Shown one piece after another: positions 2,595-15,993 of a DNA stretch of 26,495 bases (position 1 is the first letter of the stretch; each line of letters opens with the position of its first letter). Under the pieces are notes generated by a model. That model searched no databases and was not told where the DNA came from. It saw nothing but the letters and a program-made list of their open reading frames with translations. This stretch comes from a virus. The stretch lies in IMG/VR virus record IMGVR_UViG_3300050011_000005, positions 1-26,495 of that record; one strand, written 5' to 3'. The translations under genes were made by a program, and so were the position numbers.

Positions 2595-2654
2595 AATGAA
2601 GGTAGCACGACAACGTTCACGATGTACGACGGCGACGGCCGGATACTAATCTAG
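2595..2654 (+). pseudogene. Relic of a fibre-gene 3' end between two fibre genes
   Basis: Frame 3 encodes NEGSTTTFTMYDGDGRILI followed by TAG at 2652-2654. A TAG at 2592-2594 lies just before it in the same frame, so it is not attached to any upstream reading frame. It resembles the last residues of the preceding protein: NNGAAFT...RMTLQDRDAVCV aligns with NEG...TFTMYDGDGRILI. The TAG overlaps the GTG start of the next gene (TAGTG), the kind of junction seen elsewhere in this operon. I infer that this is the original 3' end of a homologous fibre gene, cut off when the current C-terminal module was inserted or the gene was rearranged. The stretch is too short for certainty. Confidence 0.45.
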
Positions 2655-4939
2655 TGAGCATTTTAATTTCGGCCGCCAATTCCGGTCTTGCGACGACGAC
2701 GTCTCTGACGAATCCACAGAGTTGCACCAAACTTGTTTGGGCTAAAACTTCGGCCGCGGTTACCAGTTTTCAAAGTTTGCTGATCGCCGCCAACTCGGGA
2801 TTTACAGCATTTAATGCGTTGCTGGCATTGCCATCGCTGTCGGTCACTACGGCTCCCGGCACTTACCAGAATTTCGGCTCACAGCCCACATGGACTAATT
2901 GGAATTGCTATGCGATGACCTCAACCACGGCTGGAGCCGGCAGTCTCATTGGTTACTTTGAAGATAATGCTGGCGGAGGATTCGTATCGCAGTCAATGAC
3001 TGGCGTATCGTTCACGAACGTCAACGACTGGATTGCCGCTAATTATCTGAATCAGGCCATGCAGATGGCCTATTACATGGAGTGGAACATTCCACTCACG
3101 CTTGCGCAGCTCAACGCGCAGTTTCTATCTGCCACTCCTATCGTAGCGCTTGGAAATCTAAGCCGTTACCTGTCACTCACGAATGCGGCGACGGCCGGTA
3201 CTGATTCGAGCGGCAACAGCTTCAACATGACGGCAGTTGGCACGCTTGCTGACGGATCCAGTTTGCCTACCTTTCCGTCCGGCGCTGCGCTGGCTTCCTC
3301 GGCTGCTGGAAACTCTGGCGTTACCGCCACCCTCAATCAGGGCCTCTCGTGCCTCATGGGCGGCCGGTCGTCGTTCACGGCCGGCGGCAGCCTGTCGGCG
3401 ACAGCGCAGAGCGCTGGATCCTCGCAAGCGACCATCGTTCAGTGGGCGAGCGTGGTGCTTTCATCCCCGCTCTACGCTGGCTTGGGCGGTGTACTCGACG
3501 GTTATCTGTGGCCGATCGCGCAGCCTCAGGCTGGAACCACGGTCTACTACGACCCCACGTACATGACCGTGGCTCCAAGCGGGGCGATCACCGCGACGTC
3601 GAATAATTTCTCGGCGCTGATTGGCTTTTACGATCCGTCCGCTGGTTGGTGCGAGGCGCTGTACAGTTACACGCCTACCCTGGTGAGCTACGCGCAAGGC
3701 GGCTCGAGCTTCACCGCCACGATATCAAATCTACCGTTTGCCTCACTCGCGACGGCAGCGGCCAATGATTCGACATTGCAGGCTGACCTCACCGCGAGTA
3801 TTCAGGCAACTGTGGCTGCTGGCGGCGTTTCAGGTTTGACCGCAGATCTCACGGCCGCTCCAGGATTCGGTATGCTGGCCCGCGGCAACGGTTCAGCTCA
3901 AAGCGCGCTCACGACCGGCATTGCTCTCGCCTGCCTCGCGGGCGGGCGCAGTTACGGCGGGGATTCATTGACCACGGGGATTGCCCTTGTCTCTCGCCCC
4001 ACGGGAGCGTCCAACGCGAGCGGCGCGGTTATCACAGGGATTCGCCTGGCCACAGCCATGAGCGGCGCTGGGGCCATCTCAGGCACCCCCACGACGGGTA
4101 TTCGGATCGCATCGAGCGCGGGCGGCCGGTCACAGATCGGTGCGCCGCTGCTGACGGACTTCAACCTGCACGCTTCGTCAGCCGGGTCTGGATCCGCAGT
4201 ATCCTCGATAATCGTGCCAAAGCCACTCACCGCGCAGATTGGCGGCAACTCAAGCATGTTGGTGGCGACTATTCGTACCGGCGTCACATTCAAGGCGCGC
4301 GCTCGAGGCGCGGGGTCGTTTCAGGGCACAGCCTTCCCCCAGGGCGCCGCTCTCGCTGCTATGATTAGCGGCAATTCGATTTTTGATCCGCCGCTGACCA
4401 CGCTGGAGCGCTATCACTTGCCGATCCTGCTCTCTCACCAAATACCGGGGATTTACCAGCCTGGACCGCTCCCCGAGGGGCAGTTCCCGATGGGGCCCGG
4501 CGAAGTGTCGGTCTACGCGATCGACTGGACGTACTGGCTCGCATTCCTGTGGCAGCCGGGATATTCGGCGGCATTGGGCTATGTGATCCGCCCCTTCCCA
4601 TGGACCGGCTACGAGTACATTTGCACGACGGCCGGACAGACTGGCAACTACGCACCCGTGTGGCCGGACAATGCGGTGGGCGAGATGGTCGTCGACGGCA
4701 GCGTGGTGTGGACCAGCCAAGCGCTGAGCGTCGCATCGTTGCAGACAAGCGTCGTGTCCGCGTCCTATAGTGCGCCTCTCGGGATCGTTACTACCGGGTA
4801 CGTGATCGTGAACAACTTGACCCCGGTGCAGATCGACGCGACGACGGCCACGCCTGGGAAGACTTACGAAGTCATGTGCACCGCCGCGCTGGCGAGCGGA
4901 GATTTTTTGATTGGCAAACTCATTTTCGACGTGAATTGA
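2654..4939 (+). CDS. Tail fibre-like protein with 20-residue tandem repeats
   Basis: A 761-residue protein starting at GTG 2654, with no strong ribosome binding site, but the start overlaps an upstream TAG. The composition is rich in Gly, Ala, Ser and Thr with few charges, as in trimeric beta-structured phage fibres. Residues about 377-576 are ten consecutive 20-residue units with the pattern xxLTTGIxLxxxxxGxSxxx and no insertions; three or so looser units lie at nucleotides 3281-3435. Near the C-terminus, after the sequence PEGQFPMG, comes an aromatic segment ending YICTTAGQTGNYAPVWP and VDGSVVWTS. This resembles the short sugar-binding or connector modules common in phage tail proteins. The preceding gene has a matching GQFPLG linker after the same repeat motif, so the two proteins share modules. 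The role as a structural adhesin is inferred from composition and position. No enzymatic motif is seen. Confidence 0.7.
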   Translation: MSILISAANSGLATTTSLTNPQSCTKLVWAKTSAAVTSFQSLLIAANSGFTAFNALLALPSLSVTTAPGTYQNFGSQPTWTNWNCYAMTSTTAGAGSLIGYFEDNAGGGFVSQSMTGVSFTNVNDWIAANYLNQAMQMAYYMEWNIPLTLAQLNAQFLSATPIVALGNLSRYLSLTNAATAGTDSSGNSFNMTAVGTLADGSSLPTFPSGAALASSAAGNSGVTATLNQGLSCLMGGRSSFTAGGSLSATAQSAGSSQATIVQWASVVLSSPLYAGLGGVLDGYLWPIAQPQAGTTVYYDPTYMTVAPSGAITATSNNFSALIGFYDPSAGWCEALYSYTPTLVSYAQGGSSFTATISNLPFASLATAAANDSTLQADLTASIQATVAAGGVSGLTADLTAAPGFGMLARGNGSAQSALTTGIALACLAGGRSYGGDSLTTGIALVSRPTGASNASGAVITGIRLATAMSGAGAISGTPTTGIRIASSAGGRSQIGAPLLTDFNLHASSAGSGSAVSSIIVPKPLTAQIGGNSSMLVATIRTGVTFKARARGAGSFQGTAFPQGAALAAMISGNSIFDPPLTTLERYHLPILLSHQIPGIYQPGPLPEGQFPMGPGEVSVYAIDWTYWLAFLWQPGYSAALGYVIRPFPWTGYEYICTTAGQTGNYAPVWPDNAVGEMVVDGSVVWTSQALSVASLQTSVVSASYSAPLGIVTTGYVIVNNLTPVQIDATTATPGKTYEVMCTAALASGDFLIGKLIFDVN
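3782..4381 (+). repeat. Ten-unit 60-nt (20-aa) in-frame repeat array
   Basis: The codons for the conserved core (TTGIAL, ITGIRL, TTGIRI, TDFNLH and similar) begin at 3911, 3971, 4031, 4091 and 4151, exactly 60 nt apart. Weaker units keep the same phase at 3791, 3851, 4211, 4271 and 4331. The DNA copies have diverged considerably while the period has no indels, which points to selection on a regular protein fold such as a beta-helix or trimeric beta stalk rather than to recent slippage. Confidence 0.85.
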
Positions 4940-4948: not shown

Positions 4949-6238
4949 ATGGGCCTATATACATCCAATCCTGTAACAATTCCAGGATTGAGTGAACCGA
5001 ATTTGCCAGTACCCGCCGCCAACGTCACCGGCCCTCTCGCCAACGCGACGATACCGGCGGGGAATGTGACGGGCTCGGGAGGGTTACTCAGCCTTTCACT
5101 GATGCCCAAGTGGATGCAGGCGCGCGGCCGCGTTCTCGCAAAGACGGGCGGTGCGAAGATTCTAACGATTGGCGAATCAACGACGCGCGGCAACGGTTCT
5201 GGCGGCGCTACCGGGAACATGGGGTTGTCTTATCCCACGCAGTTAGCGCAAATGCTGTCGGCGCGCGGGCTGCCGGCGAGTTGGAACTCTTTTGCCGGTG
5301 ATGGTAACTATGGCGGCATCGCTAATTACACGTCGCAAGTCGACAATCGTCTGGTAGTCGGAGCAAATTGGGTTTCATCATTTGCCAACACCAGGCAAGT
5401 TCTGGGTGGGCAGGACACCATCAACACTTCCGCTGGCGCTGTGAGTGCCGCTAATACGGTTACGTTTACAGTCACTCAGTCCCAGTTTGACACGGTAGAT
5501 ATCTATTGTTTTGCTGACGCAACTTTTTCCTACACCGTCTCCGTGGATGGTGGTCCAGTGCTTCAAACCGTCAATGTGGTCCCTGTTATCTACAATGGCT
5601 TTGCAGGAACGGCGCTGCAGAAAAACACCATCGCGGTGCCGCTGGGCACACATGCCATCAATATTGTTAAGTCTTCAGGAGCCAGCGGCGGCCCAGGTGC
5701 GTTTGACCTTTCCGGTATCGTTGCCTACAACTCGACAACTCCAGAAGTTCAGGTCATCAACGCCGGTATCAGCGGTGGCATCACCGGAACGGCCATGATG
5801 ACGGGGTGGAATTATACGAACACAGGAGGACCCTACGGCTGGGATCGTCTATCGGCGCTCGCTGGCGGAACATTCAATGTGTGGGCTCCGGACCTGACCA
5901 TCTTGAGTTTAATGATCAACGATGCTGTCGCGGCAACACCGCTGGCGACTTATTCTGCCAGCATTCAGGCCATTGTGACGGCGGCACTGACTTCTGGTGA
6001 TTGCCTCATGATGGTAGGTCCTCCTGGCTCCACATCCCTGCAAACCGATGCTATTCAACGGCAGTACGGGGCAGCCGCTCTTGCGGTTGCCGCCGCCAAC
6101 AATATCGTGGGGGTAAACTTCCAACAGCGATGGGTATCCTACGCCAATATGACGCCTGCTTATGCCGATACCATCCATCCCAACGGAGTGGGTTACGCGG
6201 ATGAAGCAGCCACGCTTGCCAATCTACTGATGCAGTGA
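4949..6238 (+). CDS. SGNH/GDSL-family hydrolase (virion-associated esterase-like protein)
   Basis: A 429-residue protein with the four SGNH sequence blocks in order. Block I is ILTIGESTTRG with nucleophile Ser77. A Gly273 candidate for the oxyanion hole lies in VINAGISGG. Asn324 lies in LTILSLMIND. Block V is DTIHPN with Asp407 and His410. Members of this family hydrolyse ester bonds, often removing acetyl groups from sugars. Residues 1-60 are a low-complexity beta-type leader (repeated GPLANATIPAGNVTG-like phrases) that could attach the enzyme to a fibre, as in tail-spike deacetylases. A 130-residue beta-rich insertion (about 140-260) lies between blocks I and II and could bind carbohydrate. 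Its place directly after two fibre genes suggests it acts on O-acetylated capsule or lipopolysaccharide at the cell surface. That substrate is inferred. Confidence 0.85.
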   Translation: MGLYTSNPVTIPGLSEPNLPVPAANVTGPLANATIPAGNVTGSGGLLSLSLMPKWMQARGRVLAKTGGAKILTIGESTTRGNGSGGATGNMGLSYPTQLAQMLSARGLPASWNSFAGDGNYGGIANYTSQVDNRLVVGANWVSSFANTRQVLGGQDTINTSAGAVSAANTVTFTVTQSQFDTVDIYCFADATFSYTVSVDGGPVLQTVNVVPVIYNGFAGTALQKNTIAVPLGTHAINIVKSSGASGGPGAFDLSGIVAYNSTTPEVQVINAGISGGITGTAMMTGWNYTNTGGPYGWDRLSALAGGTFNVWAPDLTILSLMINDAVAATPLATYSASIQAIVTAALTSGDCLMMVGPPGSTSLQTDAIQRQYGAAALAVAAANNIVGVNFQQRWVSYANMTPAYADTIHPNGVGYADEAATLANLLMQ

Positions 6239-9557: not shown

Positions 9558-10405
9558 AGCTCCTCGCACCCGAGACTACCGCCTTACCCCCGATCGTGCC
9601 CTCTGCGGCCCTGTGCGCGTGGTATTACGATCAATTGAAGCGATTGCTTGACGCCATGGCCGGCAGCATGGAGTTGCACATTCTGGCGGCCCTCAAGCGC
9701 AATGAGCCAACGATCGGGCTGGCTCAAGATGCCTCACCGTCTATCGGGTTGAAGCGCGCCGTGAACAAATGGGGTTCGGCTTGGGTGTCGAAGTTCGATG
9801 CCATGTCGGCCGACATTGCCAAGAAGTTTGCACAGCGAAGTTCCCGCCACGTCGATATCTCGAATGCCGCCGCGTTCAAAAAGGCGGGTTTTACAGTGCA
9901 ATTTCAGCCTACGCCGGCGGCGAAAGAGGCATACCAGGCCGTGATCGGCTGGAATGTGGGGCTCATCAAGAACCTGCCGCGCGACTATCTGGACGGTGTG
10001 CAGAATGCGGTCTGGGCCGGCGTGATGAAGGGCCAGGACTTGGAGTCGATCGCCAAGACATTGCGCGAGCGGCACGGGATGAGCGTGCGGCGCGCGGCGC
10101 TGATTTCGCGGGATCAGACGTCCAAGGCTATGGCCCTGATCGACAACGTGCGCGCGACCGAGGCTGGAATTACGCACGCCATTTGGATGCACTCACATGC
10201 CGTGAAACATCCGCGACCGTCCCACCTGGCGTTCAGCGGAAGCATTTACGAATTGAAAAAAGGCGCTTATTTGGATGGCGAATGGGTCTGGCCGCACACG
10301 GCCATCGGGTGCCGCTGCTACTACAGGAAAATAATTCCCGGCGTAAATGATCCTGACATCAAGAAGCTGATCGAGCGCGAGCGTTTGCGGCGCGATGGCG
10401 CTTAG
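9554..10405 (+). CDS. Head morphogenesis protein, Mu gpF / SPP1 gp7-like
   Basis: A 283-residue protein of the minor head protein family that follows the portal in many phages and is incorporated in small numbers in the head. The Mu gpF domain spans about residues 130-265. It has KNLPRDYLDGVQNAVWAG, a helical segment with RRAALISRDQTSKAM, and the family ending HTAIGCRCYYRKIIPG, where the Gly-Cys-Arg-Cys pattern is typical. The start overlaps the upstream small gene by 4 nt (ATGA). No fused toxin domain is present, unlike some MuF polymorphic toxins. The family role in prohead assembly or DNA ejection is established only for a few members. Confidence 0.88.
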   Translation: MKLLAPETTALPPIVPSAALCAWYYDQLKRLLDAMAGSMELHILAALKRNEPTIGLAQDASPSIGLKRAVNKWGSAWVSKFDAMSADIAKKFAQRSSRHVDISNAAAFKKAGFTVQFQPTPAAKEAYQAVIGWNVGLIKNLPRDYLDGVQNAVWAGVMKGQDLESIAKTLRERHGMSVRRAALISRDQTSKAMALIDNVRATEAGITHAIWMHSHAVKHPRPSHLAFSGSIYELKKGAYLDGEWVWPHTAIGCRCYYRKIIPGVNDPDIKKLIERERLRRDGA

Positions 10406-11615
10406 GTCTAACATTGCGCGCATGACAATCGTTTTCGACAGATCAGCGCGTAGCTTCGACATCGACGGACGCATGCGTGTCGAAAAAGCGATCATCTCGA
10501 AAGCCTGCGTCAATCCGTATTGGGGCGCTGAAATTCCGAACTACAAGGAATTGGGCTTAGATCCAGCAAAAAAATACATGCTGTATCGGGACCCGGCCGA
10601 GCTTGAGGCGGCCGCGCCAACCTACGAAGGTATCCCGCTATTGCTTATTCATAAGGCCGTTTCAGCGAACGAGCCCGAGCAAAGGCTTGTTGTTGGCGCG
10701 GTCAGCAACGTGAAATATGAGCACCCCTATCTCACTGCATCGCTGTCTGTCTGGACGAAAGAAGCAATCGATTTAATCGAGAGCGGCGACAAGGAACAGT
10801 TGTCATGCGGCTACCGATTCACCTGCGACTTGACGCCGGGTTCTAAGGATGGTTTACAGTGGGATGCCGTCATGAGAGGATTGGTAGGAAATCATTTAGC
10901 TCTTGTTGACGAAGCAAGAGTTGGACCAGAAGCCATCGTTCCAGATTCAGTTCCTTCGGAGCCCCCCATGAAATCGAAGTACGCCGCCCGATTCCCCAAG
11001 CTCACTTTCGCGAATGACGCGGACGTGATCGCCTTCGACGCCGCGATGGACGAGGAAAAGAAGGAAGCCGAGGACGCTGCGCGCGAAGCGGCCGAGGACA
11101 AGGCCCACGACTGTTACGGCAAGACGGCCGATGAGTGGGAAAAGATGGAGGCCAAGGACAAGAAAAGCGCTCGCGACGAATGGAAGAAAGCCGAGGACAA
11201 GAAGGCGAAAGACGCCAAGGCCGCGAAGGATGCGACACCCGCCGAGCCGGCCGATGACCCGAAAAATAAGGGCATGGACGGCAAGTTGACGAAGGCCGAA
11301 GTCGAAGCATTGCTCGCGAATGATCGCAAGGAACAGCGCGCATCCATCATGACGGCGGTCAACGATTTGGCCGAAGCGCGCAAGGCGGTCGAGCCGCTGG
11401 TCGGTGTGATCGCTCTCGATTCCGCCGAGGCGGTCTACGTCTACGCGCTCGGCAAGAACAAGATCGACGGCACCGGCTGGCCTCTTGCGGCCCTCAAGGC
11501 CAATGTCGAATCCTTGAAGTCACGCGCTGCGCCGGCCAAGGCCAAGATCGTCGGCGATTCGGTGGGTGGGTCCGCCCTCTTGGCCGCCTTCCCGGGGCTC
11601 GCGCGCTTCCAATAA
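10395..11615 (+). CDS. DUF2213 prohead protease-like / scaffold fusion protein
   Basis: A 406-residue protein starting at ATG 10395, overlapping the previous gene by 11 nt; an alternative in-frame ATG at 10422 (MTIVFDRSARSFD) would also fit the family. Residues about 15-190 are the DUF2213 domain, with KACVNPYWGAEIP, YMLYRDPAEL, GIPLLLIHKAV, ASLSVWTKEAID, EQLSCGYRFTCD and GNHLALVDEARVG. This arrangement resembles phage capsid maturation proteases, with His of NHLALV and Ser of LSCGY as candidate catalytic residues. From about 192 the sequence becomes a highly charged Lys/Glu/Asp/Ala-rich, probably helical scaffold, ending in a conserved GGSALLAAFPGLARFQ. An in-frame start at 10968 could make the scaffold alone. 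Position just before the cement and capsid genes fits a prohead assembly role. Confidence 0.85.
   Translation: MALRSNIARMTIVFDRSARSFDIDGRMRVEKAIISKACVNPYWGAEIPNYKELGLDPAKKYMLYRDPAELEAAAPTYEGIPLLLIHKAVSANEPEQRLVVGAVSNVKYEHPYLTASLSVWTKEAIDLIESGDKEQLSCGYRFTCDLTPGSKDGLQWDAVMRGLVGNHLALVDEARVGPEAIVPDSVPSEPPMKSKYAARFPKLTFANDADVIAFDAAMDEEKKEAEDAAREAAEDKAHDCYGKTADEWEKMEAKDKKSARDEWKKAEDKKAKDAKAAKDATPAEPADDPKNKGMDGKLTKAEVEALLANDRKEQRASIMTAVNDLAEARKAVEPLVGVIALDSAEAVYVYALGKNKIDGTGWPLAALKANVESLKSRAAPAKAKIVGDSVGGSALLAAFPGLARFQ
10958..10961 (+). promoter_or_regulatory. Internal ribosome binding site for a separate scaffold product
   Basis: GGAG followed by six C residues and an in-frame ATG at 10968-10970 lies exactly at the boundary between the DUF2213 domain and the charged scaffold region. 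Initiation here would give a 215-residue protein starting MKSKYAARFPKLTFANDADV. Confidence 0.5.
10968..11615 (+). CDS. Probable nested scaffold protein (internal start)
   Basis: This is the 215-residue C-terminal product predicted from ATG 10968 within the DUF2213 gene, in the same frame. It contains only the charged, coiled-coil-like region and the hydrophobic C-terminal end. The gene-within-gene arrangement of protease and scaffold is established for lambda C/Nu3 and several other phages. Support here is the GGAG binding site and the start's position at the domain border. Expression has not been shown. Confidence 0.5.
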   Translation: MKSKYAARFPKLTFANDADVIAFDAAMDEEKKEAEDAAREAAEDKAHDCYGKTADEWEKMEAKDKKSARDEWKKAEDKKAKDAKAAKDATPAEPADDPKNKGMDGKLTKAEVEALLANDRKEQRASIMTAVNDLAEARKAVEPLVGVIALDSAEAVYVYALGKNKIDGTGWPLAALKANVESLKSRAAPAKAKIVGDSVGGSALLAAFPGLARFQ

Positions 11616-11626
11616 GGGGCTGATTT

Positions 11627-12331
11627 ATGGCACTCGCAGGCTTTCAGCAATTCGTCAATACTCAGCCCGCGCCGGGTAAGCCAGGCGATTGGGCGGGCGC
11701 GAATCCACGCGCTTTCATCGGCGGCCCGATCGCGGGCTATGTCTCCGATGGCACGGTGATTTGCGGCAATTTCGCTTGGTTCAACCCGGCGTCCGGGATC
11801 GCGAGCGCGACCTACTCATCGGGGTGGCTGCTCGGCTTCGTGCAGATCGAAGATCAGGCGATGATTACCGCCTTCTTGGGTTTCAACAACACGACCATTA
11901 CCGCGGGCCTCCCGGTGGTTGGTGTGAGCCAGGGCGATGTCTGGGCGAACTTCGCGGCTGCGGCTGCCGCCGCGGCTCAGGTCTACGCGACATCGGGCAC
12001 TGGAGCGGCATCCACGACGTCGGGTGGCAATTATGCGACGCCCTTCTACGCCATCAATGCGGTACCGGCAGCGGCATCTTTTACGGGCGTGATCGCCGCA
12101 TCGGCGAATGGTGCCTACACGCTCACCACATCTGCGGTGACGGGCACGATTGCCATCGGGCAGTTCGTCGCGGGAACCAACGTCCCGGCCAACACGATCA
12201 TCAACGGTTTCGTGAGCGGCACCTACGGCGGCGTGGGTGTCTACACGGTCGCGAATTCGACCGCGGTCGGCTCTGAGGCGATGACCAGCCAAGCCGGCAC
12301 GATCACCAAAATCTCGACCTGGCAGGCATAA
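11627..12331 (+). CDS. Capsid cement/decoration protein, Gp24-like, paralog 1
   Basis: A 234-residue protein preceded by AAGGGG 7 nt before the ATG. The core begins GFQQFVNTQPAPGKPGDWAG and continues with GNFAWFNP, GFVQIEDQAMITAFLGF and SQGDVWANF, ending KISTW. The same skeleton occurs in the next two genes. This matches the structural cement family that binds the outside of capsids built from DUF2184 proteins and stabilises them. Residues about 151-221 are an inserted beta module (FTGVIA...LTTSAVTGTIAIGQFVAGTNV...GVGVYTVANSTAVGS) of a type common in phage surface proteins. The low charge and Ala/Gly/Thr-rich composition fit an exposed beta protein. The function is assigned from family and position. 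Confidence 0.82.
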   Translation: MALAGFQQFVNTQPAPGKPGDWAGANPRAFIGGPIAGYVSDGTVICGNFAWFNPASGIASATYSSGWLLGFVQIEDQAMITAFLGFNNTTITAGLPVVGVSQGDVWANFAAAAAAAAQVYATSGTGAASTTSGGNYATPFYAINAVPAAASFTGVIAASANGAYTLTTSAVTGTIAIGQFVAGTNVPANTIINGFVSGTYGGVGVYTVANSTAVGSEAMTSQAGTITKISTWQA

Positions 12332-12334
12332 CCC

Positions 12335-13297
12335 ATGGCACTCACTCAGCCGACCAACACCGGGTTTCAGCAAGTCATCAACGTCCTGCCGGCGCAGGGC
12401 CAGCAAGGGGATTTCTTCGGCACGAACCCGCGGGCCATCTTGCTTGCGGGGCCCGGGATTTGGGTGGCTCCGTCCGGCGGCATTTTGGCGGGAAACTTCT
12501 GTTCGGCGAATCAATCGACTGGCGCCGTCACTCAGGCGCCTGGAACTTCGGGTGCTCAAATCGGCTTCGTGCATCGCGCGAACAACGCGCTTATCACGAG
12601 TTTTCTGGGGTTCAGTACCTTGCTGATTCCGGCTGGATTGCCGGTGGCGATTTTCAGCCAGGGCGATTTCTGGGACATGTTCCCGAACGGCGCCTCCCCT
12701 GGTCAAAACGTGTACGCGGACCCGATCACGGGCGCGGCCATTGCCGCCACTGCGGCGGGTACCGCATGGGTCGGCACGGGCTACATCGCGGCTGGCACCG
12801 TCGGCTGGACGGGGACCGGGTACATAGTCGGCAACACGCTCACGGTTTCCTCTACCCTCACGGGCGCGATCGCGCAGTGGCAGTCGATCACCCTGACCTC
12901 ACCCGCGACGGGCGAGACGGCGACGCAGATCAATTTGAATCCTGGCACCTATTTGACGGCCGGCAGCGGAACGTCCTGGACGGTGAGCGGATCACCACAG
13001 ACGGTCGGCAGTGCGGCGGTGCCCGTGTTGCTCACCGGAACATCGGCCAGTCAGTTCACCGCATCGACCACGGGATCGGGTTCCTTGGCCGTCGGCAGCG
13101 TGCTGAACGGCGTCGGCGTCACGGAAGGCTCCACGATCCTGGCGGGCAGCGGTCCCTACAGCGTGACCGGCCAGCAGGCGGTGTTTTCGAGCGGCAGCCC
13201 GGGTGCCATGGGCGCTGGCGGCAGCATCCTGACCGCCTGGAAAGTGAACAGTTACGCCAACCCGGGCGAAAACGCCCTCATCTCGACCTGGGGCTGA
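12335..13297 (+). CDS. Capsid cement/decoration protein, Gp24-like, paralog 2
   Basis: A 320-residue protein separated by only 3 nt from paralog 1. It keeps the same core: GFQQVINVLPAQGQQGDFFGTNPRA, AGNFCSANQ, GFVHRANNALITSFLGF, GLPVAIFSQGDFWDMFPNG and a final ALISTWG. It is longer than paralog 1 because it carries two inserted beta segments, about residues 161-232 (NTLTVSSTLTGAIAQWQ... ending SPQTVGSAAV) and 233-291 (FTASTTGSGSLAVGSVLNGV... GPYSVTG). I infer that these modules project from the capsid and that the core binds the shell. Relative to paralog 1 this is an ancient duplication with strong divergence. Confidence 0.8.
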   Translation: MALTQPTNTGFQQVINVLPAQGQQGDFFGTNPRAILLAGPGIWVAPSGGILAGNFCSANQSTGAVTQAPGTSGAQIGFVHRANNALITSFLGFSTLLIPAGLPVAIFSQGDFWDMFPNGASPGQNVYADPITGAAIAATAAGTAWVGTGYIAAGTVGWTGTGYIVGNTLTVSSTLTGAIAQWQSITLTSPATGETATQINLNPGTYLTAGSGTSWTVSGSPQTVGSAAVPVLLTGTSASQFTASTTGSGSLAVGSVLNGVGVTEGSTILAGSGPYSVTGQQAVFSSGSPGAMGAGGSILTAWKVNSYANPGENALISTWG

Positions 13298-13300
13298 TCC

Positions 13301-14287
13301 ATGACTCTCGCGCCCAACGGTTTTCAAAGCGTCATCAACCCGCAGCCCGGCGTTGCCAAAGCGGGTGACTTTGCCGGCGCGGGACTACGCACGGTCATCC
13401 TGGGTGGCGGTAAGGTTGCCCGCCTAATCGCAGCTCCTTCACCGAACCAGCCGTATGTCGGGCAGTTCGCGTGGGCCGATCAGATCGGCGGGTTGGTGTA
13501 CGGCACCTATACCGGGTCGATTGCGGCCAAGCTCGGCTTCATTCACAACGACGATCAGGCCATCATCGTGCCGTTTCTTGCTGGGACGGAAAGCTACATC
13601 GAGGCCGGCCAGCCGGTCACGCCGTTCAGTCAGGGCGCGTTCTGGGCGAACTTCCCCTTGGGCGCTACCGCTGGACAAAAGGTGTTCGCGAACTACGCCA
13701 CCGGTTCAGTGTATGCCGCAGCCACGGGCACCACGACCACGGTGGCCGCCATCACGACCGGATCCATTGCAGCGACCACTGGTGTTCTGACCGTCACGAC
13801 GCTCGCGAGCGGCACGCTGGTTGCGGGCGATGTCGTGACCGGCGCGAACATCACCACGGCCGGCATTACGAACGGCGTTCTCATCACCGGACAGTTGACC
13901 GGCACGATTGCCGGCGGCGCGGGTGCAACCTACTCGACCAATTACACTGGAGCCACAGCGGTATCCGGCGGCGCGATGACGGCAAAGAATGCGGTGGAAA
14001 CGCCCTTCTACGTCGACACTCCCGCCTATGTTCCTGCGGTGTTCGCGGGCTACATCAGCGCGGCGGGATCGCTCACCGTGACCTCGACGGCTTCCGGTAC
14101 GGTCACCATCGGGCAGACGCTCGCGCTCGCGAACGGCACTGCATCGATTCCATCGAACACTCAAATTACCGCAGGATCGGGACCGTACACGGTCACGCCT
14201 GCCGGTAATCCGATCGGCTCAGCTTCTGCGCCTGTGAATTTCATCGGTTCTCTTGGTACACTCGCCATTATTTCGACCTGGGGCTAA
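13301..14287 (+). CDS. Capsid cement/decoration protein, Gp24-like, paralog 3
   Basis: A 328-residue protein, 3 nt after paralog 2. Core matches are NGFQSVINPQPGVAKAGDFAG, GQFAWADQIGG, KLGFIHNDDQAIIVPFL, GQPVTPFSQGAFWANFPLG and the terminal AIISTWG. Two beta modules are inserted, about residues 151-228 (GVLTVTTLASGTLVAGDVVTG... ATYSTNYTGATAVSG) and 250-314 (GSLTVTSTASGTVTIGQTLAL... GPYTVTPAG). The second module is close in pattern to the second module of paralog 2. It lies directly before the major capsid gene. I infer outer-capsid decoration. Three full-length cement genes in a row is more than the single copy usual for such phages, as far as I know. Confidence 0.8.
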   Translation: MTLAPNGFQSVINPQPGVAKAGDFAGAGLRTVILGGGKVARLIAAPSPNQPYVGQFAWADQIGGLVYGTYTGSIAAKLGFIHNDDQAIIVPFLAGTESYIEAGQPVTPFSQGAFWANFPLGATAGQKVFANYATGSVYAAATGTTTTVAAITTGSIAATTGVLTVTTLASGTLVAGDVVTGANITTAGITNGVLITGQLTGTIAGGAGATYSTNYTGATAVSGGAMTAKNAVETPFYVDTPAYVPAVFAGYISAAGSLTVTSTASGTVTIGQTLALANGTASIPSNTQITAGSGPYTVTPAGNPIGSASAPVNFIGSLGTLAIISTWG

Positions 14288-14290
14288 TTT

Positions 14291-15352
14291 ATGAATGGTT
14301 ACAATCCCGTTGCCTTCGACGCCGCGATCAAAGCCGGTCAAGGCCCAATGCTTCTCGACGCCATCCGCGCCCAGTTCGGCTTGAGCGGTACGCTCGAGTA
14401 TGAGGATTGGCTGCCGCGCGATGCCGCCGGCCGGATCGCCATGGACGCACAGAGCGAACTCGTGACGGTGAGCAACGCGGGTATCCCGGCGCTGCTCTCG
14501 ACGTACCTTGATCCGAAACTGATCGAAGTGCTGGTCGCGCCGATGCGCGCCGCCGAAGTCGCGGGACTCGAAAAGAAGTACGGCTCATGGACCGACAATG
14601 TGGTGATGTTCACCGTCGTCGAATCTGAGGGCGAGGTCGCCGCCTACGGCGATTACTCGACCAACGGCAGCGTGGAAGCGAACTTGAACTTCCCGCAGCG
14701 GCAGAGTTTCCATTACCAGACGTTCACGCAGTACGGAGAGAAGCAGTTGGCGAATGCCGCCTTGGCGAAGGTGGATTACGCTGCTCGCTTGCAGATTGCC
14801 TCCGCGCTGATTCTGAACAAGTACCAGAACTACACCTATCTCTTTGGCGTGACGAATTTGCAGAATTACGGGTTGACCAATGATCCCAGTCTTCCCGCTG
14901 CCATCACGCCGACCTATTCGTGGCTGACGAACGCATCGGCCACCGCGTTGACCGTCTATCAGGATATCGTGCGGCTGTTCATTCAGTTACAGGGCCAGAT
15001 GAACGGCACCATCACGGAAACCGACAAGATGGTGCTGGCGCTCTCCCCGCAGAACAAGGCGGCGCTGAACTACATCTCGACGTACAACGTCAACGTGTAC
15101 AAGTCGCTGAAGGACAACTTCCCGAACCTGCGCATTGTCGACGTGCCTGAGTACGCGACGACCGCCGGCCAGCTCGTGCAGTTGTGGGTCGAGGAAGTTG
15201 AGGGCCAACGTTCGGTCGAGGTGGCTTTCACCGAGAAGATGCGCGCGCACAATATCGTGCAGGACACGTCGAGCTGGAAACAAAAGCGATCCCAAACATC
15301 GCTAGGCGCTGTGATTTTCCGCCCCATGGCGGTCGCGCAGATGCTTGGATGA
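14291..15352 (+). CDS. Major capsid protein, DUF2184 family (HK97-fold)
   Basis: A 353-residue protein, the shell subunit. Recognisable family segments are SELVTVSNAGIPALLSTYLDP, MRAAEVAGLEKKYGSWTDN, FTVVESEGEVAAYGDYSTNG, the aromatic NFPQRQSFHYQTFTQYGEKQ, a helix containing DYAARLQIASALILNKYQN, and a C-terminal part with QRSVEVAFTEKMRAH followed by QKRSQTSLGAVIFRP. The length is typical for the family. The start follows the third cement gene by 3 nt, and the stop overlaps a small ORF (ATGA). Its place after protease/scaffold and cement genes is the standard order. Unlike HK97, no N-terminal scaffold segment is seen, consistent with the separate upstream scaffold. Confidence 0.93.
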   Translation: MNGYNPVAFDAAIKAGQGPMLLDAIRAQFGLSGTLEYEDWLPRDAAGRIAMDAQSELVTVSNAGIPALLSTYLDPKLIEVLVAPMRAAEVAGLEKKYGSWTDNVVMFTVVESEGEVAAYGDYSTNGSVEANLNFPQRQSFHYQTFTQYGEKQLANAALAKVDYAARLQIASALILNKYQNYTYLFGVTNLQNYGLTNDPSLPAAITPTYSWLTNASATALTVYQDIVRLFIQLQGQMNGTITETDKMVLALSPQNKAALNYISTYNVNVYKSLKDNFPNLRIVDVPEYATTAGQLVQLWVEEVEGQRSVEVAFTEKMRAHNIVQDTSSWKQKRSQTSLGAVIFRPMAVAQMLG

Positions 15353-15519
15353 AAGATATCGTCACATATCGATTGGTATATCGTGACGACGATACTTGGT
15401 CGATAGAAAGCACTGACGATGATGAAGAAAATCGAACTTTTCACGATTTTCAATCGGCATTGAAAGCGATGGTTATATTGTGCGGGTCGATTGTTGTCGC
15501 ATGTAGCAATCGCAGGTAG
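15349..15519 (+). CDS. Small acidic ORF with C-terminal hydrophobic segment, after the capsid gene
   Basis: A 56-residue frame from ATG 15349, overlapping the capsid stop as ATGA, to TAG 15517-15519, 3 nt before the next start. Residues 1-35 are polar and acidic (RDDDTWSIESTDDDEENRT) and residues about 40-52 are hydrophobic (AMVILCGSIVVAC). The DNA is visibly richer in A and T than its neighbours, which points to recent acquisition or different constraint. I do not recognise the family. The precise fit between two phage genes supports a real gene, because otherwise this would be a 170-nt gap. The hydrophobic end is too short for a confident membrane span. Confidence 0.5.
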   Translation: MKDIVTYRLVYRDDDTWSIESTDDDEENRTFHDFQSALKAMVILCGSIVVACSNRR

Positions 15520-15522
15520 TCA

Positions 15523-15993
15523 ATGACCGCGCTCACCGGGCAGGCTGGCGGAACATCTGGCGTTACCGCCCTTCTCTCGACGCCGCGCCGCGGCCCGCAG
15601 ACGACTGGTTATGTCGCGGGTCCCGGCAATACCATCATGGGTCATTTCGTCTGGGCCGATCCCATTGAAGGGACGGTCGCCAACACCCGCACGGCTCCCT
15701 GGCAATTGCTGCGCTATCTCCTGCCGGTCCATGGAGACTGGAATCGCGTCTATTTCGAGAATGGCTTCTGGTATCTGCGCTCAGGACTGCCGGCAACTGT
15801 GTTCGCAGCGGGAAATTTGCGCATGAGATTCGCAGGCGGCGCTCAATCGGGATCCCCGGTTTATGCCGCGCTGGTGGACGGCAGCGCAATCTCGGGAGTA
15901 GCATTGAACGCGGAATTAACGCCTTGGGTCGTCACAAGTAATTGTGGGCCATGGGGCTTTGCCCATATTTCAACCTGGAGCACCTTCGCATGA
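15523..15993 (+). CDS. Fourth, reduced cement/decoration-like protein
   Basis: A 156-residue protein on the far side of the capsid gene. It shares scattered core features with the cement paralogs: GNTIMGHFVWADPIEGTVAN aligns with the GxFAWAD segment of paralog 3, GLPATVFAAGNLRMRF aligns with the GLPVxxFSQGDxWxxF segment, followed by SGSPVYA and the terminal HISTW. It lacks the inserted beta modules altogether, and its N-terminus (MTALTGQAGGTSG) differs from the GFQQxxN start. I infer a diverged member of the same family, perhaps occupying different sites on the capsid. It could instead be a separate small head protein. The 4-nt ATGA overlap links it to the next gene. Confidence 0.6.
   Translation: MTALTGQAGGTSGVTALLSTPRRGPQTTGYVAGPGNTIMGHFVWADPIEGTVANTRTAPWQLLRYLLPVHGDWNRVYFENGFWYLRSGLPATVFAAGNLRMRFAGGAQSGSPVYAALVDGSAISGVALNAELTPWVVTSNCGPWGFAHISTWSTFA

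Follow-up and report, generated by a model that had tools for sequence, protein, structure and literature searches.

A 26,495-nucleotide viral fragment from an uncultivated phage (positions 1-26,495 of IMG/VR record IMGVR_UViG_3300050011_000005, hereafter the window) raises the question of why a phage should surround its capsid gene with four relatives of a capsid decoration, or cement, protein. Three tandem genes, here called C1, C2 and C3, precede the gene for the HK97-type major capsid protein (MCP) and a fourth, C4, lies downstream of it, giving the order C1-C2-C3-MCP-C4 with only 3 nucleotides between C1 and C2, C2 and C3, and C3 and the capsid gene. A first-pass annotation of the window had described open reading frames (ORFs) of 234, 320 and 328 residues together with a fourth; these lengths and their coordinates are exact, and the fourth is 156 residues long. 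The phage is contractile-tailed, with portal, protease, capsid, sheath, tape measure and hub genes all found. We consider a multi-paralogue cement layer that displays exchangeable surface modules to be the best reading of this array, and we favor it with moderate confidence.

Sequence searches establish that the four genes are homologous and belong with known cement proteins, as the first-pass annotation had proposed in calling them Gp24-like. C1, C2 and C3 score 58, 58.5 and 55.2 bits against PF23982 (XM1_gp53 minor capsid), about twice its curated cut-off of 27 bits, and all four proteins, C4 included, are matched by phrog_2122. The paralogy claimed for C1-C3 is likewise confirmed by pairwise BLASTP (E values of about 1e-21 to 1e-24, far beyond chance), with roughly 40-45% identity between their cores. 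Every one of the 45 upstream or single copies, those of the window among them, carries an FQ motif in its N-terminal arm. A second family, PF22758 (Phage_cement; E217 gp24/Pam3 gp6), is passed by several relatives of the window proteins (4e-16 to 2e-17); in the window C3 reaches 16.8 bits (E 0.008) against a cut-off of 27, and C1, C2 and C4 give no match. The neighboring capsid protein is homologous to those of Pseudomonas phages Pa193 (gp26, phmmer E 1e-18) and E217 (1.3e-18).

What distinguishes the paralogues from one another is a set of inserted β modules, which were counted with a hidden Markov model (HMM) built from the relatives' sequences. The first-pass annotation had given the counts as 1, 2, 2 and 0. 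The HMM returns one module in C1, two in C3 and none in C4, and upholds the count for C2 in part: the second half of its insert is alone significant, with 11.4 bits exceeding 1000 of 1000 shuffles (maximum 8.6), and the first half is marginal, for which reason two modules are probable in C2. The insert of about 155 residues has the length of two divergent modules; this length is the main support for the first of them, along with the presence of two to three modules at the same place in most C2 orthologues. All modules had been described as inserted before the end of the protein; instead, alignments and motif positions place them in two loops that flank the penultimate core strand, site A before it and site B after it. 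C1 uses site B (the last hairpin), C2 site A (the preceding loop) and C3 both. AlphaFold2 modeling of C3 from 26 aligned sequences (predicted local distance difference test score, pLDDT, 89.2; predicted template modeling score 0.85) shows both modules well folded as separate strand stretches between core strands, and the two are thus predicted to fold separately. In relatives the modules match phrog_21413 and the tail fiber family phrog_38233.

The array is not peculiar to the window. The same order, C1-C2-C3-MCP-C4, is found in six other uncultivated phages (G007, G014, L191, L193, L195 and L196; a further contig, L192, is near-identical to L193). Two of these genomes look complete because of their terminal repeats: in G007 (51 kb) an exact overlap of 127 bp begins at base 1, and G014 (54.6 kb) has an exact 123-bp terminal repeat. 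In a tree of the N-terminal core without modules, computed for the seven array genomes and other copies, the C2 proteins of all seven form a single clade (support 96/96), as do the C3 proteins (99/95), and a single C1 clade is not rejected (p-AU 0.38). Since these paralogue clades are shared by the seven genomes, the triplication must be old. That the array is a product of faulty assembly or annotation, or that its genes were duplicated in tandem very recently, is thereby refuted: nothing was found in favor of either, the window paralogues are only about 40-45% identical to one another, and the array recurs in six further genomes, two of them with terminal repeats.

Within these conserved lineages the modules turn over. 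For C1, C2, C3 and C4 the counts are 1, 2, 2, 0 in the window (that for C2 being probable), 2, 1, 0, 0 in G007, 3, 2, 1, 0 in both G014 and L191, 2, 2, 2, 0 in L193, 2, 2, 1, 0 in L195 and 3, 3, 1, 0 in L196. In two genomes the module shared by C1 and C2 is more alike than the cores that carry it (82% against 49% identity in G014; 71% against 52% in L191), and modules have therefore moved between paralogues. This transfer, together with a module number that ranges from 0 to 3 at the same locus, is what might be expected if C1, C2 and C3 formed interchangeable homotrimers that compete for all sites and were kept by a useful mixed surface or by drift. We nevertheless regard such free mixing as unlikely, given that three separate core lineages have long been conserved in a fixed order, beyond what drift would lead one to expect.

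Elsewhere in the family a single cement gene is the rule. Among 160 capsid loci surveyed in viral contigs and bacterial genomes, 149 have one; two hits occur at nine loci, of which L030 and L134 are frame artefacts and seven are real (some being duplicate contigs). Across 50,697 phage records, each matching record was hit at one place only, whether the query was C2 (127 records), C3 (13), a C2 orthologue (59) or a C4 orthologue (109); phage isolates with detectable homologues thus have one cement gene per record. The survey of copy number in relatives that the first-pass annotation had suggested accordingly gives mostly one cement gene, with arrays in six further phages and a variable number of modules. 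Scans of the viral contigs with C1-C4 as single proteins gave no hits; the relatives were found with MCP and with family alignments. No open-access paper describing tandem cement paralogues was found.

The single-copy relatives fall on a ladder of lengths, mostly about 157-193, 228-244, 299-306 and 371-378 residues for zero, one, two and three modules, the modules entering at site A where the sequences were read. Second HMM hits in the relatives of 300-375 residues had raised the possibility of two fused cement cores, which was rejected by reading of the sequences and by the module HMM. In Acetobacteraceae prophages (L125:5913-6908, L132, L141, L157, L159 and others) a different Gly-rich repeat (GSGYTSAPTVTI) occupies a third core loop.

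Comparison with characterized heads indicates how the cores might be arranged. The gene for gp53 of Vibrio phage XM1 lies, as gene 53, beside capsid gene 54, and its product resembles C1-C3 in passing the PF23982 cut-off and in its conserved core; it is, however, a single decoration protein of 160 residues, where the window has three modular paralogues and a fourth after the capsid gene. Its N-terminal domain contacts the capsid protein, its C-terminal domain trimerizes, and the T=7 shell (T, triangulation number) carries seven decoration subunits per asymmetric unit (PMC10457771). Pseudomonas phage E217 (gp24, which with Pam3 gp6 defines PF22758) and Pa193 (gp25) share the homologous capsid protein, PF22758 being matched by relatives and window C3 remaining below cut-off. 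They differ from the window in having one decoration protein, present in 180 copies as trimers on a T=9 shell, with tandem paralogues not reported. The E217 trimers occupy threefold and quasi-threefold axes, and an N-terminal arm links neighbors (PMC10329688). The phrog_2122 minor head proteins of Bcep781-like, Acinetobacter, Aeromonas and Klebsiella phages are direct homologues that adjoin a homologous capsid gene, but are single-copy.

A T=7 shell with seven subunits per asymmetric unit has one true and two quasi-three-fold trimer classes, and hence three paralogues could fill three classes. C1, C2 and C3 might then be homotrimers, each on its own symmetry class, a refinement of the multi-paralogue cement layer that does not exclude it. 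It accords with the persistence of three distinct upstream lineages in all seven array genomes, with the XM1 geometry, and with insertion sites and fixed residues that are specific to each paralogue: site B is occupied in C1 in seven of seven genomes and in C2 in none of the seven (G014 being read from sequence). Moreover, a review of decoration proteins distinguishes one three-fold and two quasi-three-fold types of site, among which Dec of phage L is reported to discriminate (PMC7602432). On the other hand, XM1 and the single-copy relatives fill all sites with one protein, and T=7, being taken from XM1, may not be the triangulation number of the array phages; on balance we consider such a division of sites rather doubtful. 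The three genes are also of equal standing, 3 nucleotides apart, and all present in every array, as would suit an obligate heterotrimer with one subunit of each. Such a trimer seems improbable: in the N-terminal core, the part compared, only seven paralogue-specific positions turned up, and these are scattered. More broadly, the layer could be heteromeric, with C1-C3 non-interchangeable, whether each at one symmetry-distinct site or joined in an obligate C1:C2:C3 trimer, and with C4 as a special-site component; this we put forward tentatively, at less than even confidence.

C4 stands apart from its upstream neighbors. The FQ motif is found in none of 18 downstream copies, C4 included, and the module is absent from all 18. 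The first-pass annotation had seen in C4 a fourth, short, module-free relative; it is indeed related and module-free, but not merely a short copy, since it groups with the copies that follow the capsid gene in two-copy phages, in one clade (100/97) separate from all upstream copies. In L193 (10865-13090) and L196 (7185-9041) the C4 domain sits at the C terminus of a protein of 742 and 619 residues, respectively, whose N-terminal region is long and repetitive. The natural reading of these fusions is possibly that of a head fiber with a capsid-binding base. In head fiber gp8.5 of phi29 a base domain that contacts the capsid likewise bears a long extension, although this base is N-terminal and the C4 domain C-terminal, and the link between the two is one of analogy only. 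The armless C4 with its clade of its own, and the presence of the module in tail sheath and neck-type genes (see below), could also mean that only one or two of C1-C4 are virion cement and that the others act in the neck or tail or go unpackaged. As C1-C3 all retain the arm and core motifs, we give this little credence.

In the mechanism that we propose for the multi-paralogue cement layer, C1, C2 and C3 would be co-expressed paralogues of the trimeric cement protein of E217/XM1-type heads. By comparison with XM1 and E217, their conserved core would anchor on the capsid at three-fold or quasi-three-fold positions by its N-terminal half and arm, and the C-terminal half of the core would trimerize. 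One to three autonomous β modules would sit in the neighboring loops A and B, and because both sites lie in the C-terminal half, outward display is likely. Projecting from the shell, the modules may thus be exchangeable ornaments through which the head gains broader contact with cells, glycans or other surfaces; one capsid could then bear several decorations, perhaps binding glycans or the host surface as the first-pass annotation had surmised. C4 would be an older paralogue whose N-terminal arm was lost or replaced and which has no module in any relative seen. Because its domain ends a protein of 619-742 residues in two relatives, the most likely role of C4 is either docking at a special site or forming the base of a head fiber.

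Several observations weigh against this interpretation. Sequence and profile searches of the PDB with the core gave only chance matches and did not reach the decoration chains of E217 and XM1; identity of the core fold of C1-C4 with the XM1/E217 cement is thus suggested by the Pfam and PHROG profiles. C4 scores 13.5 bits against PF23982, under the 27-bit cut-off, and is for this reason named a diverged relative, though phrog_2122 still matches it (1.3e-7). The AlphaFold2 model of C2 resolves the insert poorly (pLDDT about 35-60), its core blocks being mostly at 81-95, in contrast to the confident model of C3. Finally, the modules show no match to any known binding family: Pfam has no immunoglobulin (Ig), Big or carbohydrate-binding module (CBM) match in the window cement proteins or their relatives, and an Ig-like or carbohydrate-binding label for them is unsupported.

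The same module of about 65 residues is also inserted in tail sheath proteins of related phages (L003:10893-12737, L004:14063-15790, L029:4418-6133, L053:10195-11904 and L085:6458-8386). In L139, a phage borne on a metagenome-assembled genome, it occurs in a head protein (phrog_1912, 10249-10827) and in a phrog_1876 protein (11133-12077); these carriers are head and neck-type genes. More than one decoration per capsid is known from Sf14 (β-tulip gp33 and Hoc-like gp20) and T4 (Hoc and Soc), and Hoc-like relatives of Sf14 gp20 differ in their number of Ig-like domains, much as the number of modules differs here. The Sf14 and T4 decorations are, however, non-homologous and placed at different axes, whereas those of the window are paralogues with modules inserted inside the cement core. 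The herpesvirus triplex (Tri1/Tri2A/Tri2B) offers a precedent, with no homology claimed, for a trimeric cap built at three-fold sites from more than one protein (PMC7602432).

The features of the locus are listed in the table. A promoter and terminator scan gave no excess over shuffles. The small ORF between MCP and C4, which the first-pass annotation had overlooked, is less GC-rich than the window as a whole (42% against 59%). Immediately before the terminase gene lie a 795-residue protein (196-2583) with repeats that resemble, by eye rather than by profile, chitobiase-type C-terminal domains, and a tail protein (4949-6238; phrog_15881), apparently an SGNH hydrolase. A 761-residue protein (2654-4939) has, at residues 633-705, a short match to the head decoration family phrog_20658 (E 1.8e-4).

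Table. Genes and inserted modules of the cement locus in the window.
Feature	Position	Strand	Evidence and remarks
Head maturation protease gene, upstream of the array	10395..11615	+	phrog_2229 1.8e-104
C1, cement paralogue 1, 234 aa, core and one module at site B	11627..12331	+	PF23982 1.3e-15; phrog_2122 9.6e-21
C1 module, residues 157-220	12095..12286	+	HMM 3e-18; site B, after TPFYA strand, before last core strand
C2, cement paralogue 2, 320 aa, core and ~155-residue insert at site A	12335..13297	+	PF23982 9.3e-16; phrog_2122 1.5e-32
C2 probable first divergent module, residues 161-229	12815..13021	+	HMM E 0.027, marginal
C2 second divergent module, residues 238-285	13046..13189	+	HMM 5.8e-5
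C3, cement paralogue 3, 328 aa, core and modules at sites A and B	13301..14287	+	PF23982 9.4e-15; phrog_2122 1.5e-26
C3 module A, residues 153-227	13757..13981	+	HMM 3e-7; before penultimate core strand; predicted strands within 147-229
C3 module B, residues 253-309	14057..14227	+	HMM 3e-7; before last core strand; predicted strands within 246-317
MCP, 353 aa	14291..15352	+	phrog_264 3.9e-64
Small ORF, 57 aa	15349..15519	+	ATGA overlap with capsid stop; ends 3 nt before C4
C4, diverged cement paralogue, 156 aa, no module, no FQ N-terminal arm	15523..15993	+	phrog_2122 1.3e-7 and 2.4e-9

Cement proteins of this class have been described as one protein that fills all trimer sites. The array opens two questions to testing: how quasi-equivalence in a phage shell can be broken by means of paralogues, and how surface modules become distributed across head and tail sheath. 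Loops A and B, which tolerate roughly 60-230 residues, are natural insertion points for display work on harmless phages. If the layer is indeed heteromeric, the different exchangeable modules would be arranged in a spatial pattern on the surface of these phages.

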